44,136 bases of DNA. Origin: an uncultured Clostridia bacterium (GTDB lineage: Bacteria > Bacillota > Clostridia > UBA1381). The stretch lies in assembly GCA_944390495.1 (NCBI GenBank), contig CALXQE010000096.1, positions 24,001 to 68,136 of the forward strand. Direction: 5' to 3'. The notes below the pieces were generated by a model. The model saw only the letters and a list, made by a program, of their open reading frames with translations. It did not search any database and was not told the origin of the DNA. Shown in pieces: positions 11,050 to 18,791 of this stretch. Numbering within the stretch: the stretch's first letter is position 1; each line of letters begins with the position of its first letter. A program made the position numbers and the translations under genes.

Positions 11050-12285
11050 TTAGTTAGTTTTATCCGCAACGTTTTCCATTAGACGGACCTGAACCTCCAT
11101 GGTTTCGCCGTCACGTAAAATCTTAAAGGTCAGATAGTCGCCTGCCTTTTTCTGATCGCGGATTTCGTTTACTTCATCGGCAGTAGATACTTTTTGTCCG
11201 TCAACCTCTAAAATCATATCGTTGACTTTAAGTCCTGCCTCCTCTGCACCGCTGCCTTCAGACACTGCTGCTATAAACAAACCATAACCGGTATCTTTAA
11301 TTGAAATACCTACAAGCGGTCTGCCTGTAACATAGCCTGTTGACATTAAATCGTCAATTATAGGTTTAGCTTCTGAGATAGCTATTGCAAATCCCATACC
11401 TTCAACACCTGTTGTTGACAATTTTACGGAGTTAATACCTATAACTTCACCATATTGATTAATAAGTGCACCGCCGCTGTTACCTGAATTAATTGCGGCA
11501 TCTGTCTGCAATAGGTTATAGGTTCTGTTATCTATTGTCATTGTTCTGTTTACAGCACTTATAATTCCTGCTGTAACAGAACCGGAAAATTCCTGTCCTA
11601 ATGGGTTACCGATAGCAACTGCTGTTTCACCAACCTGAACGGTTGTTGAATCACCCAAAGTTGCAGCTGTAAGCTTTGTATCGCCCGGATCAATCTTTAG
11701 CACTGCAAGGTCTGTTTGAGTATCTTGACCTACAAGCGTTGCACTAAATTCTTCACCGGTATTTAAAATTACTGATATTTCAGATGCACCGTCAATAACA
11801 TGTTGGTTTGTTACGATATATCCATCTTCTTTGAAGATTATACCTGAACCACTGCCCTGTTCAACAGTTTCGCCGCTTTGTGTAGGATCGCTTGAGTAGT
11901 AATATCTTCCGGTAAACGGGTCATAATACTTTTGAGGGGAAAGTGTTGTTTTGTTTATAACACCTACTACACTCGGACCAACTTTTGTGGCAATTTCCGG
12001 TATTGTAAGAACTTGTTTACCATTGTTGTAAGCTGTAAGCTGTGCATTTGAAGTTGTATTTGAATCAGTTTGAGCCATTTGTGCTGCTTGATTGGAAGCA
12101 CCGACTGACTGATTGTTGTCTTTCATCGTAAAGTACATGCCTGTACCGAACACTGCTGCTGTAAATACGCTTGCTGCAAGTGCTGAACATACGGCTGTTA
12201 GAACAATATGCGGTTTCTTTTCTTTTTTCGGTTTTTCATTGTAAATAATTAAATCAGTTGATTCTGTATAAGGGTATTTTTTCAT
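11050..12285 (-). CDS. htrA: Membrane-anchored HtrA/DegP-type serine protease
   Basis: A 411-residue surface protease for misfolded exported proteins. A basic N-terminus is followed by one membrane helix (about 27-50) and a Ser/Thr/Gln/Asn-rich linker. The trypsin-like domain has the triad His162 (TNQHVIDG), Asp192 (TDLAVLK) and Ser270 (GNSGGAL). One PDZ domain fills about 310-400 (SEGSGAEEAGLKVNDMILEVDG). There is an AGGAGG ribosome binding site before the ATG. No clear -35/-10 pair or CssR site was found. Confidence 0.95.
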   Translation of the reverse strand: MKKYPYTESTDLIIYNEKPKKEKKPHIVLTAVCSALAASVFTAAVFGTGMYFTMKDNNQSVGASNQAAQMAQTDSNTTSNAQLTAYNNGKQVLTIPEIATKVGPSVVGVINKTTLSPQKYYDPFTGRYYYSSDPTQSGETVEQGSGSGIIFKEDGYIVTNQHVIDGASEISVILNTGEEFSATLVGQDTQTDLAVLKIDPGDTKLTAATLGDSTTVQVGETAVAIGNPLGQEFSGSVTAGIISAVNRTMTIDNRTYNLLQTDAAINSGNSGGALINQYGEVIGINSVKLSTTGVEGMGFAIAISEAKPIIDDLMSTGYVTGRPLVGISIKDTGYGLFIAAVSEGSGAEEAGLKVNDMILEVDGQKVSTADEVNEIRDQKKAGDYLTFKILRDGETMEVQVRLMENVADKTN

Positions 12286-12446: not shown

Positions 12447-12475
12447 TTGACAAATAAACATAATAAAGGTAAAAT
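12447..12475 (+). promoter_or_regulatory. Sigma-A promoter for the polA-znuACB-zur operon
   Basis: TTGACA at 12447-12452 and TAAAAT at 12470-12475 have a 17-base spacer. Transcription should begin near 12482, at the edge of the palindrome described next. Confidence 0.85.
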
Positions 12476-12480
12476 AAATT

Positions 12481-12503
12481 TAATTGCGAATAATTCGCAA
12501 TTA
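12481..12503 (+). promoter_or_regulatory. Perfect 11-1-11 palindrome, probable Zur operator
   Basis: The sequence is perfectly symmetric about base 12492. Its core TGCGAAT-A-ATTCGCA has the 7-1-7 form of Fur-family operators (Bacillus Zur TCGTAAT-N-ATTACGA, Fur TGATAAT-N-ATTATCA), keeping the inner AAT-N-ATT. It overlaps the expected transcription start of an operon that ends with zinc uptake genes and a Fur-family regulator, so autoregulated repression by zinc is the natural reading. It could also form an mRNA hairpin. Confidence 0.65.
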
Positions 12504-12519
12504 GAACGGAGGTATAAGT

Positions 12520-15123
12520 GTGAAAAAGTTACTTATAATCGACTCAAACAGTATTTTAAACCGTGCATTTTACGGCGTCAGGTATTTATCTGCAAAAGAC
12601 GGTACACCGACTAATGCAATATACGGATTTTTAAATATACTATTAAAATTAATAAAAGAACAAAAGCCGGATTATATTTGTGCGGCATTTGACGTTAAAG
12701 CTCCGACTTTTCGTCATAAGCAATATGAAGGATATAAGGCACAGCGTAAACCTATGCCTGAGGGACTTTCGGTGCAGATGCCTCTTGCAAAGGACGTTTT
12801 AGGGGCTATGAATGTGACTATACTTGAAAAAGAGGGTTACGAAGCAGACGATATAATAGGTACTGTTGCTAAGATATGTGAAGAAAGTGATATAAGCTGT
12901 TTTATTGCAACAGGTGATAAGGACGATTTACAGCTTGCAAGTGATAAAACAAAGGTAATATTAACTGTTACAAAGTCAGGATATAACGAAACAATTATAT
13001 ATGATGATAAGGCCGTAAAGGAAAAATATAATGTTACTCCTAAGGAATTTATTGATGTTAAAGCACTTATGGGTGACCCGTCGGATAATATACCGGGAGT
13101 TAAGGGCATTGGTGAAAAAACGGCAATGAGCCTTATCGAAAAACATCATAGCATTGAATATATATATGACCATATTGATGAAATAGGTTTAAAGGGAGCA
13201 ATGCTTCAAAAATTAAAGGACGGACGTGATATGGCGTTTATGTCAAAGGAACTTGCAACAATAGATATAAATGTTCCGATTGAATTTAATAAAGAGGATT
13301 GTATATTTACCGATTTTTCATCATGCGGTGAACTTTACGATATTTTAAAAAGGCTTGAACTTAACAGTATTATAAAGAAACTTGATTTATCTGCCGGCGA
13401 TTCGGAAAATACGGAAGAGGATATTTTTAAGGATTTTTCTTATAAAATTGGCGGGTTGGATTTATCAAAGCTTGAAAACGGCGATGCAGTTACGGTATTT
13501 ATTGATTTTAGCGGTAATGGTGTATCAACTGTTACGGTGGGAATTGGAAACGAAGCCTTTATAATAGAGGACAGTAATGAAATTAAAAGCTTTCTTGAAA
13601 ACGAAAAAATCAAAAAAATTATGTTTGACGCAAAGGAAAGCATTGTAAAGTTAAAGGGTAATATAAAAAATATATGCGATGACACGGCAATAAGTGCATA
13701 TCTTGTAGACCCTGCAAGAAGTGAGTACACAATAGAAAAACTTACATCGCAGTATTTTGGCATTGAGATTGAAAAACCGCAGGATAAACAGCTTTCACTT
13801 CTTGACGATGATGAGGGTAACAGAGGTGAATATACTGCAAAATGTGCAGTTGCACTTGGAAAACTTAACGAAAAAATACAGGAAAAAATAAAGGAAAACG
13901 GACAGGAAAAACTGTATCGTGAAATAGAACTTCCGCTTGTTACGGTACTTGCACATATTGAGATGAATGGTTTTTTGGTAGACGATAATCAGTTAAAGGA
14001 ATTTACCGATAAATTAGCCGAAAAAATAGATGTGCTTACAAAGGAGATATATTTACTTTCAGGTGAGGAATTTAACATTAATTCACCTAAACAGCTTGGC
14101 GTAATTCTGTTTGAAAAACTTTCTTTAAAGCCTGTAAAGAAAACAAAAACGGGATATGCAACAAATGCAGATGTGCTTGATAAGTTAAAGGATAAACACC
14201 CGATAATAAATCTTATTACGGAGTATCGTCAGCTTTCAAAGCTTAAAAGTACCTATTGTGACGGACTTAGTGCAGTGGTTAATCCGAAAACCCATAGGAT
14301 ACATTCTGTATTTACACAGACAGTTACTGTTACAGGACGTCTTTCATCAACAGAACCTAATCTTCAAAATATACCTACGAGAACTGAGATTGGCCGTGAA
14401 ATAAGAAAGATGTTTGTAGCACCTGAGGATTATTTGCTTGTAGATGCGGATTATTCACAGATTGAACTTAGAGTGCTTGCACATATTGCAGAAGATGAAA
14501 CAATGATAAATGCTTTTAAAAACGGCGAGGATATTCATGCCGTTACGGCGTCGCAGGTGCTTGGCATTCCCCTTAGCGAAGTTACAAAGGAACAGCGTTC
14601 AAGTGCAAAGGCTGTAAATTTCGGAATAGTTTACGGTATAGGTGAGTTTTCACTGTCACAGGATTTGCATATAAGCGTAAAAGAGGCAAAGGCATATATT
14701 GACGGTTATCTTGAAAAGTATCACGGTGTCAGAAATTATATGGAAACTATTAAGGAACAGGCGAAAAAGGACGGATATGTAAAAACACTCATGAATAGAA
14801 TACGATACATTCCTGAACTTAAATCACCGAATTTTAATATACGTCAGTTTGGTGAACGTGTGGCACTTAATACACCGATACAGGGTACGGCGGCTGACAT
14901 TATAAAACTTGCAATGGTAAGGGTGGATAACAGGCTTATAAACGAGGGATTAAAATCACGTCTTATACTTCAGGTACACGATGAACTTATTGTTGAAGCA
15001 CATAAGGATGAGGTTGACATTGTTAAAAAGATTTTGTCAGAGGAAATGCAGGGAGCTATGGAGCTTAAAGTTCCGCTTAAAGTTGATATGTCAGTAGGTA
15101 AGAGTTGGTTTGAAGCTAAATAA
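12520..15123 (+). CDS. polA: DNA polymerase I
   Basis: An 867-residue repair/replication polymerase. The 5' nuclease domain spans about 1-290 (DSNSILNRAFYG, GDKDDLQL, and the helix-hairpin GDPSDNIPGVKGIGEKTA). A 3'-5' exonuclease-like domain covers about 310-460, where the DxE metal site is replaced (FIDFSGNG), so proofreading is probably absent. The polymerase domain has VDADYSQIELR near 645, the O-helix RSSAKAVNFGIVYG, and QVHDELI near 820. The start is a GTG at 12520, placed by GGAGG at 12508-12512. znuA follows after 18 bases with no terminator, so polA is the first gene of the zinc operon. Confidence 0.96.
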   Translation: MKKLLIIDSNSILNRAFYGVRYLSAKDGTPTNAIYGFLNILLKLIKEQKPDYICAAFDVKAPTFRHKQYEGYKAQRKPMPEGLSVQMPLAKDVLGAMNVTILEKEGYEADDIIGTVAKICEESDISCFIATGDKDDLQLASDKTKVILTVTKSGYNETIIYDDKAVKEKYNVTPKEFIDVKALMGDPSDNIPGVKGIGEKTAMSLIEKHHSIEYIYDHIDEIGLKGAMLQKLKDGRDMAFMSKELATIDINVPIEFNKEDCIFTDFSSCGELYDILKRLELNSIIKKLDLSAGDSENTEEDIFKDFSYKIGGLDLSKLENGDAVTVFIDFSGNGVSTVTVGIGNEAFIIEDSNEIKSFLENEKIKKIMFDAKESIVKLKGNIKNICDDTAISAYLVDPARSEYTIEKLTSQYFGIEIEKPQDKQLSLLDDDEGNRGEYTAKCAVALGKLNEKIQEKIKENGQEKLYREIELPLVTVLAHIEMNGFLVDDNQLKEFTDKLAEKIDVLTKEIYLLSGEEFNINSPKQLGVILFEKLSLKPVKKTKTGYATNADVLDKLKDKHPIINLITEYRQLSKLKSTYCDGLSAVVNPKTHRIHSVFTQTVTVTGRLSSTEPNLQNIPTRTEIGREIRKMFVAPEDYLLVDADYSQIELRVLAHIAEDETMINAFKNGEDIHAVTASQVLGIPLSEVTKEQRSSAKAVNFGIVYGIGEFSLSQDLHISVKEAKAYIDGYLEKYHGVRNYMETIKEQAKKDGYVKTLMNRIRYIPELKSPNFNIRQFGERVALNTPIQGTAADIIKLAMVRVDNRLINEGLKSRLILQVHDELIVEAHKDEVDIVKKILSEEMQGAMELKVPLKVDMSVGKSWFEAK

Positions 15124-15141: not shown

Positions 15142-15990
15142 ATGAAAAAAATTATAATATTTATGACAGCTATGTTGATGGCTGTTATGATGACGTCATG
15201 CGGAAGTGAAACAGCAGACAGTGGCAAACTAAAGGTATATACATCATTTTACGCAATGTATGATTTTGCAAAAACAGTCGGCGGTGATGATATTGAACTT
15301 ACTAATATTGTACCCGCAGGCGGTGAAGCACATCATTTTGAACCGTCAGCGGCGGATATGGCAAAATTATCAGAATGTGATGTGTTTATATACAGCGGCA
15401 ACGGTATGGAGGAGTGGGCAGAAGATATTGCCTCAACACTTCCTGAAAGCGTAAAGGTAGTTGAAACTTCAAAGGGACTTAGCGTAGATGAAAGTGATCC
15501 ACATGTATGGCTAAGCATTGAAAATGCAAAATCACAGATAGATGCAATATGCAGTGCGTTTTCAGAATCAGACAGTGAAAATGCAGAAAACTATATTAAA
15601 CGTACAGATGAATATAAAACAAAGCTTGACCTTTTAGACGAGGAATATAAAAACGCAGGACTAAGCGGCAAAAAACTGTTTGTTACTCACGGTGCATACG
15701 GGTATTTGTGCCGTGACTACGGAATGGAACAGGTTGCCCTTGAAGGTGTACAGGGTGAAAGCGACCCGTCACCGTCACAGATGGCACAGGTGGTTGACAT
15801 GATTAAAGTAGATGGTGCAAAGGGTATATTCTATGATCCAAACGGCAGTGATAAGACTGCGGCGGCGGTGGCAGATGAAGCAGGTGTTTTATCCCTTGAA
15901 CTTTGTACCTTTGAAACAGACTCAGAAAACAGAGATTATTTAACAGTTATGAACGCCAATCTTCAGGAACTTAAAAAGGGTTTGATATAA
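15142..15990 (+). CDS. znuA: Zinc ABC transporter substrate-binding lipoprotein ZnuA
   Basis: A 282-residue cluster A-I metal-binding lipoprotein whose signal ends with the Cys at residue 20 (MMTSC). Likely metal ligands are His64 (HHFEP), His121 (DPHVW), His183 (THGAYGYL) and Asp232 (YDPNGSDKTA). Three His plus one Asp is the zinc pattern; manganese proteins have Glu at the third place. There is no His-rich loop. It captures zinc outside the membrane for ZnuCB. Its stop overlaps the znuC start (TAATG). Confidence 0.9.
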   Translation: MKKIIIFMTAMLMAVMMTSCGSETADSGKLKVYTSFYAMYDFAKTVGGDDIELTNIVPAGGEAHHFEPSAADMAKLSECDVFIYSGNGMEEWAEDIASTLPESVKVVETSKGLSVDESDPHVWLSIENAKSQIDAICSAFSESDSENAENYIKRTDEYKTKLDLLDEEYKNAGLSGKKLFVTHGAYGYLCRDYGMEQVALEGVQGESDPSPSQMAQVVDMIKVDGAKGIFYDPNGSDKTAAAVADEAGVLSLELCTFETDSENRDYLTVMNANLQELKKGLI

Positions 15991-16730
15991 TGGATAATGA
16001 GATTTTAAATGTTAAAAATTTATATTTTGACTACACCGATACATCTGTACTTCGTGATGTAAGTTTCACTTTGAAAAAGGGTGATTTTTTAGGGATAATA
16101 GGTGCTAACGGTGCAGGTAAAAGTACACTTATTAAAATAATTTTAAAAATACTTCCATTTAACAGGGGAGAAATAAATCTTTTTGGTGAGGATTTATCAA
16201 AATTTAAGGATAATTTTAAAATAGGATATGTTTCACAAAAGGCGAATTCCTTTAACAGTGACTTTCCGGCAACTGTCAGGGAAGTAGTTATGGCAAATCT
16301 TTACAGCCGTAAGGGACTATTTAAAAGATATACAAAAGAAGACAACGAAAAACTTAAAAAGGTTCTTGATAAGGTCGGTATGGCAGGCTTTGAAAACAAA
16401 CTTATAGGAAAACTTTCAGGCGGTCAGCAGCAGAGGATATTTATTGCAAGAGCATTAATATCAGAGCCGGAGCTTTTACTGATGGATGAACCGACTGTCG
16501 GAGTTGATGCAAAATCAGTAAAACAAATTATGGATATTATATGCGAGCTTAATAAACAGGGAATGACAATTATAATGACAAATCACGATACACCGGAACT
16601 TGTCAGAGTGTCAAATAAGCTTTTAATTTTCTGTGAACACGGTAACGGTGAATTTGTAAGCCGAAATGACCTTACAGTAGCAGAAGTTAATGATATATTT
16701 GCCGGAAAGAGGGTGCATCATCATGCTTGA
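15990..16730 (+). CDS. znuC: Zinc ABC transporter ATP-binding protein ZnuC
   Basis: A 246-residue ATPase with Walker A GANGAGKST near 37-45, Q-loop GYVSQKANSF, signature LSGGQQQR, Walker B LLLMDEP and an H-loop TNHD. The C-terminus ends in a small His cluster (VHHHA), which may sense or bind metal. The start overlaps the znuA stop and the end overlaps znuB by 8 bases. Confidence 0.93.
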   Translation: MDNEILNVKNLYFDYTDTSVLRDVSFTLKKGDFLGIIGANGAGKSTLIKIILKILPFNRGEINLFGEDLSKFKDNFKIGYVSQKANSFNSDFPATVREVVMANLYSRKGLFKRYTKEDNEKLKKVLDKVGMAGFENKLIGKLSGGQQQRIFIARALISEPELLLMDEPTVGVDAKSVKQIMDIICELNKQGMTIIMTNHDTPELVRVSNKLLIFCEHGNGEFVSRNDLTVAEVNDIFAGKRVHHHA

Positions 16731-17532
16731 GATTTTTCAGTACGGTTTTATGCAAAAAGCTTTTTTGGTAGCTGTTATTATAGCTGTCATAGCACCTTGT
16801 ATCGGTACACCGATAGTATTAAAACGTCTTTCTGCCATAGGTGACGCAACATCACATTCAGCCCTTGCCGGAATAGCTTTTGGATTGCTTTTGGGTATAA
16901 ACCCTATTTTAGGAGCGGTAATATTTTCAGTAATAGCAGTGTTTGGAATTGAACTTTTAAGGCGGGTATTCGGTAAGTATTCCGAAATTGCAACAGTTGT
17001 CGTTATGTCGGCAGGTATCGGTCTTACGGCTGTTTTGTCAGGGTATATTACAAAGGGCTCAAGTAATCTAAACAGCTTCCTTTTCGGTTCTATTGTAGCT
17101 ATTTCTGATTTTGAAATGTACCTTACAATAGTTTTGGGAGTAATTGTTATGGTGGTTTCAATGCTCCTTTATAAAGAGCTGTTCTTTGTTACATTTGATG
17201 AAGAAGCATCAAAACTTGCGGGAGTACCTGTTGGAGCAATTAATATGATTACTATGGTACTTACTGCGGTTACTGTATCGGTTGCGTCAAGAATTGTTGG
17301 GGCACTTATGATTTCGTCGCTTATTGTAATACCTGTTGCATCGGCGATGATGATTGCTAAAAGCTATAAACAAACTATTTTATTAGCGGTACTTTTTGCA
17401 GAATTATTTACTATTGCAGGACTGTTTATGTCCTATTATATACCTGATTTGCGTCCGGGTGGAACAATCGTTCTTTTAGGTGTTATTTTCCTTGTTATAC
17501 TAAGTGTCATAACAGGCAAAAGGAGAAGGTGA
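16723..17532 (+). CDS. znuB: Zinc ABC transporter permease ZnuB
   Basis: A 269-residue ABC-3 family permease with about eight hydrophobic helices; the family signature region GDATSHSALAGIAFG is near 35-50. I take the ATG at 16723 (MLEIFQYGF), with GAGGGTG 7 bases upstream, not an in-frame ATG 33 bases earlier that would add a non-hydrophobic extension. The start overlaps the end of znuC, and zur follows after 4 bases. Confidence 0.92.
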   Translation: MLEIFQYGFMQKAFLVAVIIAVIAPCIGTPIVLKRLSAIGDATSHSALAGIAFGLLLGINPILGAVIFSVIAVFGIELLRRVFGKYSEIATVVVMSAGIGLTAVLSGYITKGSSNLNSFLFGSIVAISDFEMYLTIVLGVIVMVVSMLLYKELFFVTFDEEASKLAGVPVGAINMITMVLTAVTVSVASRIVGALMISSLIVIPVASAMMIAKSYKQTILLAVLFAELFTIAGLFMSYYIPDLRPGGTIVLLGVIFLVILSVITGKRRR

Positions 17533-17536
17533 TAGA

Positions 17537-17941
17537 ATGGATATACAAAAAACACTATCATCTGCCGGACTTAAATGTACCAAACAGCGTATTGCTGTTA
17601 TGGAGGTACTTTTATCGTCATCTGGACCGATTACAGCAGAGGATATACATTCACGTGTGAATGAAATGTCTTTGTCCACGGTATACAGAACGGTGGAAAC
17701 GCTTTGTAATAAGCATATTTTAGCTAAACATACTATCCAGGACAGTGATAAATTTTATTATGACATTGTCACTGAAAAACATCATCATTATGCAATATGC
17801 CTTGGCTGTAAAAGTATGAGATACATAGACCATTGCCCTGTGCATACTGCTGATATTGACGGTTTTACAGTAACGGGACATAAGCTTGAAATATACGGTT
17901 ATTGCAATAAATGTAAAAATAAAAACAGTGTTTCAAATTAA
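17537..17941 (+). CDS. zur: Fur-family regulator, probably Zur
   Basis: A 134-residue Fur-family repressor. A winged-helix domain covers about 1-75 (SLSTVYRTVETL is the recognition helix). The metal-binding dimer domain has KHHHYAICLGC, with structural-zinc cysteines 88, 91, 123 and 126, and regulatory-site histidines around 82-84, 99 and 103. It sits directly behind znuACB with AAGGAGAAGGTG as ribosome binding site, which favours zinc over iron or peroxide sensing. Its probable target is the palindrome at 12481-12503. Confidence 0.82.
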   Translation: MDIQKTLSSAGLKCTKQRIAVMEVLLSSSGPITAEDIHSRVNEMSLSTVYRTVETLCNKHILAKHTIQDSDKFYYDIVTEKHHHYAICLGCKSMRYIDHCPVHTADIDGFTVTGHKLEIYGYCNKCKNKNSVSN

Positions 17942-17956
17942 TGAAACACTGTTTTT
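17921..17956. terminator. Bidirectional terminator between zur and the pyridoxal kinase gene
   Basis: A perfect 15-bp stem AAAAACAGTGTTTCA/TGAAACACTGTTTTT surrounds the zur stop codon and just touches the end of the convergent kinase gene, with T runs on both strands. Confidence 0.92.
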
Positions 17957-18791
17957 ATTTTATCATTTTCATAAGGTCACCAAGGCATTCTTCAAAACAT
18001 ACTCCGTACCAATGCTCTTTTTCGTGACCTATCGTATGTTTAATGCAGTCAACAGTGTAATCTACAGCAATTTTAACGGCTTTTCCCATATCAAATCCCT
18101 TTACTAATGCACCGCAAAGTGTACTTGAAAATACATCTCCGGTACTATGATAGTAGCCTGGGATATTATCACCGAAATAGGTAGAAAATTCACCTGTTTC
18201 GCTGTTGTATGACATAACACCCTGTGAATTTTCATTGAAGCTTACACCTGTTAAAACTACTATCTTTGAACCAAGCTTTGAAAGTCTTATAAGCTTTTTT
18301 TTAATAAATTCTTCGTCATAGCCTTTTTCTACATATTCTTCATCAAGCAAAAGGGCGGCTTCGGTTAGATTTGGAAGGATAACATCAGCTTTTTTGCATA
18401 ACTTTTTCATTTCTGATGCAAATGACTTGTCAAAACCTGTATAAAATTTTCCCTTGTCGCCCATAACTGGATCTACTATTATAAGGTTATCTTCTGTTTT
18501 AAAGTCATCAAAAAAATCAGATACAATTTTAATCTGTTCAAATGAACCGAGATACCCGGTTGATACTGCGTCAAATTTAACGCCGATATTTTTCCAGTGT
18601 TTTGCGATATTAGGAATGTCACTTGTTAAATCACGATAAGTATAACCTGTAAAACCGCCTGTATGGGTTGATAATACGGCGGTGGGAACAGGACAGGCTT
18701 CAATACCCATTGCTGAAATTATAGGAAGTGCAACAGTAAGTGAGCACTTGCCGAAACAGGAAATATCCTGGATTGATACAATTCTTTTCAT
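17955..18791 (-). CDS. Pyridoxal/pyridoxamine kinase
   Basis: A 278-residue ribokinase-like enzyme that phosphorylates B6 vitamers to make PLP precursors. The N-terminus MKRIVSIQDISCFGKCSLT is the PdxY/PdxK type. The substrate region is PTAVLSTHTGGF, the central VDPVMGDKGKFY holds the phosphate/metal residues, and the catalytic Asp lies in STGDVFSS. It is a single-gene unit with its own promoter. Confidence 0.88.
   Translation of the reverse strand: MKRIVSIQDISCFGKCSLTVALPIISAMGIEACPVPTAVLSTHTGGFTGYTYRDLTSDIPNIAKHWKNIGVKFDAVSTGYLGSFEQIKIVSDFFDDFKTEDNLIIVDPVMGDKGKFYTGFDKSFASEMKKLCKKADVILPNLTEAALLLDEEYVEKGYDEEFIKKKLIRLSKLGSKIVVLTGVSFNENSQGVMSYNSETGEFSTYFGDNIPGYYHSTGDVFSSTLCGALVKGFDMGKAVKIAVDYTVDCIKHTIGHEKEHWYGVCFEECLGDLMKMIK

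Follow-up and report, generated by a model that had tools for sequence, protein, structure and literature searches.

Organization of the polA–zinc uptake locus

The window (the whole 44,136-nucleotide stretch of DNA analysed here) carries five plus-strand genes in the order polA–znuA–znuC–znuB–zur, which overlap or lie no more than 18 bases apart, as the first-pass annotation had described. The first gene, polA (12520–15123), encodes DNA polymerase I on the evidence of NCBIfam models above cut-off (NF004397/TIGR00593), with a full-length equivalog match to NF004397 of 1037.8 bits against a cut-off of 720; it is the only copy found in the genome, and the search of relatives returned one match per genome. 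Next come znuA (15142–15990, PF01297), a zinc-type ABC substrate-binding lipoprotein with AdcA and YcdH among its closest solved structures, znuC (15990–16730, PF00005), an ABC transporter ATPase, and znuB (16723–17532, PF00950), an ABC-3 family permease whose ATG start at 16723 is our own reading of the sequence, the mechanical open reading frame opening at 16690. Aligning ZnuA with the zinc-binding AdcA, whose metal-ligand residues we take from general knowledge, places a His at all three His positions (EAHHFEPS, DPHVWL and VTHGAYGYL) and an Asp at the fourth, where AdcA has Glu; the three-His zinc site seen earlier is borne out. The last gene, zur (17537–17941), encodes a Fur-family regulator (PF01475, 66.8 bits, cut-off 23.1) whose naming also draws on its co-occurrence with the operator described below. 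No terminator had been noted before 17921, and terminator scoring agrees: the only strong one is a bidirectional intrinsic terminator with a 20-bp stem at 17916–17961. Upstream, the divergent htrA (11050–12285, minus strand), for which no regulation is proposed, also neighbours the operator in three relatives where polA is absent from the site.

Between htrA and polA lies a sigma-70-type promoter (12447–12475, plus strand) with a –35 TTGACA at 12447–12452, a 17-base spacer and a –10 TAAAAT at 12470–12475 (11 of 12 matches). Five bases 3′ of the –10 begins a perfect 11-1-11 palindrome, TAATTGCGAAT-A-ATTCGCAATTA (12481–12503, no strand assigned), with the 7-1-7 core TGCGAATAATTCGCA (TGCGAAT-A-ATTCGCA) at 12485–12499; both elements are confirmed as first described. 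A 7-1-7 form with inner AAT-N-ATT is common to Fur, PerR and Zur boxes, and we propose the palindrome as a Zur operator. A LexA box, which has the form CGAAC-N4-GTTCG, was ruled out on spacing. Perfect 11-1-11 palindromes are expected at 0.017 per dinucleotide-shuffled window, and shuffling the htrA–polA intergenic region produced one in 7 of 20,000 shuffles. Nevertheless, symmetry alone is little proof, because the window has two more such palindromes, at 2610 and 10822, which are possibly terminators; what is special about the one at 12481–12503 is its position and its conservation. The exact core TGCGAATNATTCGCA occurs once in the genome (2.32 Mb, 97% complete), and the search for further operators returned intragenic sites, namely both sites with one mismatch and the inspected sites with two.

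The box and zur vary together among relatives

We located the polymerase, transporter and regulator genes in 100 relatives, whose genomes are mostly metagenome-assembled, and analysed 60 regions. With the core relaxed to TGCRAATNATTYGCA, 21 of the 70 family genomes contain the box, compared with 2 for a backwards control pattern. Of 43 regions from relatives, 11 have an exact match no more than 250 bp from polA, where shuffling gives a mean of 0.003. The genes polA, znuACB and zur are linked in 15 genomes, two of them (G053 and G037) by a linkage inferred across contig ends. In 14 of the 15 a box with at most one mismatch directly follows the –10 of polA; the fifteenth, G033, which has a contig break inside znuB, carries a two-mismatch site before polA. 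The znu–zur contig of G034 opens inside polA, and two box-bearing contigs stop before zur would be reached (G012 and G004). Conversely, none of the 28 polA genes with upstream sequence and without zur downstream is preceded by the box. A polA protein tree, built by quick search with SH-aLRT support, gave six independent pairs on starred branches; in 6 of 6 a change in the box is matched by one in zur (sign test, p = 0.031; labels assigned after inspection).

The two ways in which the arrangement breaks up are informative. In G020, G022 and G028 polA lies elsewhere and is boxless, and the box remains between htrA and znuA. This is the opposite of a palindrome that accompanies polA even where the zinc genes are missing, the outcome which the first-pass annotation had named as fatal to its reading, and the search that it had proposed thus places the palindrome before polA in zur-linked genomes and before znuA where polA is absent. 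In G005, G008–G011 and G013 no zur was found, and polA retains a TTGACA-17-TATACT or TAAAAT promoter without the box, some of these genomes showing a remnant GCAAAT half-site; most near relatives in fact retain the promoter upstream of polA, whether the box is there or not. The box-like sequences that G018, G000 and other genomes show inside polA itself are matches within coding sequence.

Several neighbourhoods differ in other respects. Five of the zur-less genomes (G005 and G008–G011; loci L125–L129) keep polA–znuA in a neighbourhood without znuC, znuB or zur, leaving an orphan substrate-binding protein. Genus g15 has several genomes with polA–znuACB but neither zur nor box, and one of its members, G029, has a separate operon of a fur-type gene, znuA, znuC and znuB with its own box, TTGCGAATCAATCGCAA (L162:1309). 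In G022, G019 and G028 (L134, L136 and L153) the end of an apparent uracil-DNA glycosylase gene, identified by eye, lies upstream of polA, another repair context.

A palindrome in this position could also act as an RNA or DNA hairpin, either as a leader attenuator or as a terminator of antisense transcription; its arms could form a stem closed by a 3-base loop, and it scores as terminator-like on the minus strand. Several conserved boxes, however, would break the stem. An A opposite C mispairs the RNA in TGCAAATAATTCGCA (L246), TGCAAATGATTCGCA (L253) and TGCAAACGATTCGCA (G028), the G029 box has A opposite A, and these mispaired sites still occupy the same kind of place. Nor would a hairpin be expected to vanish together with zur, and we reject this explanation as extremely improbable.

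The box accompanies a wider Zur subfamily

Scanning our Zur alignment (A1) against named genomes returned 80 loci. At 48 of these a gene for an ArsP_2 permease precedes zur, and 47 of the 48 carry the box before the permease gene. The box is also present in 7 of 7 testable polA–znu–zur loci and in most znu–zur loci with enough upstream sequence. Because it is shared by all three arrangements, the box belongs to the Zur subfamily irrespective of the first gene. The ArsP_2 operons, found in Lachnospiraceae/Butyrivibrio (L191–L257), thus combine the same Zur subfamily and the same box before the first gene with a 10TM permease in place of the window's polA–znuACB. This permease (PF11449; e.g. L256:6376–7878) has a His/Cys-rich loop; although annotated as an exporter, it would be suspected of importing zinc if it were expressed in zinc starvation. 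Among the scanned loci, linkage to polA was seen solely in the window's family, of which Candidatus Avimonoglobus intestinipullorum is a member.

A similar operator is known from Clostridium thermocellum, where the DAP-seq motif of Fur_1691, TGCAAATcATTTGCA, lies before a zinc ABC transporter operon (PMC8457756) and differs from the window box by one base per half-site. The likeness is one of operator and gene context, as Fur_1691, like the window's Zur, adjoins a zinc ABC operon; unlike the window operon, however, its described targets do not include polA (PMC8457756). The znuACB operon of Firmicutes, as represented by the B. subtilis Zur regulon in the passages of a review that we consulted (PMC6103462), likewise joins a Fur-family Zur, zinc ABC transporter genes and a 7-1-7 promoter operator. 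The window operon differs from it in having polA first and zur last and in its box, TGCGAATNATTCGCA, and its genome in having a single convincing operator; those passages do not name polA among Zur targets.

The regulator itself falls below the NCBIfam equivalog cut-offs for PerR (NF052545, 62 against 180 bits) and Fur (NF051892, 61.3 against 220 bits), and NCBIfam returned no curated Zur model matching it; its gene lies with zinc transporter genes downstream of a 7-1-7 operator, and operator and regulator are co-inherited across relatives. C88, C91, C123 and C126 are invariant in 81 of 81 aligned sequences and are predicted to form the structural Cys4 zinc site, and H82, H84, C100, H115 and E118, candidate His, Cys and acidic ligands of a sensory zinc site, are equally invariant. 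The DNA-binding domain, in contrast, has no invariant Cys in alignment A1 and hence no such counterpart of the sensory Cys of B. subtilis Zur (C84; PMC5007448) or of E. coli Zur, in which it is located in that domain (PMC6103462). That C100 might stand in for it is a guess.

The genome has two Fur-family genes, that of the operon and a PerR-like one at C25:104425, adjoining a rubrerythrin-like gene. Given that second protein and the inner AAT-N-ATT that PerR and Fur boxes share with those of Zur, the palindrome might instead be read by the PerR-like protein, in which case the operon would answer to peroxide or iron and not to zinc. Against this, G008–G011 and G013 have lost zur and the box yet retain a remote Fur-family homologue, across many Clostridia the box accompanies zur, and it fits the motif of Fur_1691, the Fur protein with a zinc transporter as target (PMC8457756). 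We therefore consider a PerR-read box very improbable and regard it as very likely that 12481–12503 serves as operator for the Zur that the operon's last gene encodes.

Probable place of polA in a zinc-responsive transcript

The polA–znuA gaps of box-bearing relatives range from 4 to 498 bases, and no relative has a box there. Promoter-like sites are almost absent, with one weak site (G001) among the nine long gaps read fully, and these same gaps contain no convincing terminator, only one weak terminator-like match (G033). An internal zinc-responsive promoter before znuA, which as the sole such start was the other outcome named against the original reading, was rejected in view of the boxless gaps and the near absence of promoter-like sites. 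At L107, L109, L115, L124 and L130 the gaps are filled with dispersed inverted repeats (tagggg/ccccta types, for example), which stretch them to as much as 498 bases and leave the linkage intact.

With no box, convincing promoter or terminator between polA and znuA, polA transcription would very probably rise in zinc starvation. The boxless gaps, the single good promoter upstream of polA, which is the box-bearing one, and the single-copy polA together make it likely that polA transcription is under Zur control. A less probable alternative is that Zur governs znu through the box and polA is effectively not zinc-regulated, weak promoters or incomplete repression keeping the polymerase constant. 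This would suit a housekeeping gene that has been retained while box and linkage were repeatedly lost, and a box downstream of the –10, a position that may allow only partial repression. It sits less easily with the box-bearing promoter being the only good one and with a polA–znuA linkage that is widespread through much of the family.

Discussion

Taken as a whole, the claim that a Fur-family operator controls an operon joining polA, zinc uptake and Zur is supported at the level of sequence, which shows box, promoter and gene order together with the coupling of box and zur in relatives, and we consider it highly likely. From this arrangement we infer that the operon's own Zur would bind the box in a zinc-dependent manner, that the five genes would be co-transcribed and that the amount of DNA polymerase I would change accordingly. 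When zinc is plentiful, zinc-loaded Zur dimers would bind the 7-1-7 box, which covers roughly +1 to +22 just downstream of the –10, and would obstruct RNA polymerase at the sole promoter evident for polA–znuA–znuC–znuB–zur. As zinc falls, Zur would release the box and the whole transcript would be made, polA included; with zur itself in the derepressed transcript, this would constitute negative autoregulation.

The switch itself is an ordinary, known Zur switch, and what is new is the composition of its regulon. We found no paper placing polA in a Zur regulon in the literature searched, which gave partial coverage, and polA as a passenger of a zinc operon appears to be undescribed. Such a passenger, with basal expression sufficient when repressed, is the most likely role of polA here, a reading we favour because box or linkage has repeatedly been lost without loss of polA; polA can do without Zur control, since in several lineages the box is gone or polA has moved elsewhere. 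It is doubtful that the control is adaptive, with DNA polymerase I raised in zinc shortage as a true member of the family's zinc-starvation response; if so, extra polymerase might, for example, make up for zinc-dependent proteins of replication and repair that are failing.

The operator TGCRAATNATTYGCA is now defined for a wide clostridial Zur subfamily. A single-copy core replication and repair enzyme behind a zinc-sensing operator offers a natural system for examining whether the dosage of DNA polymerase I can depend on metal status, and the family supplies natural controls in genomes with polA outside the operon and in genomes without zur and box. In this family of gut Clostridia, production of DNA polymerase I probably follows zinc shortage, which might tie DNA repair physiologically to metal status.
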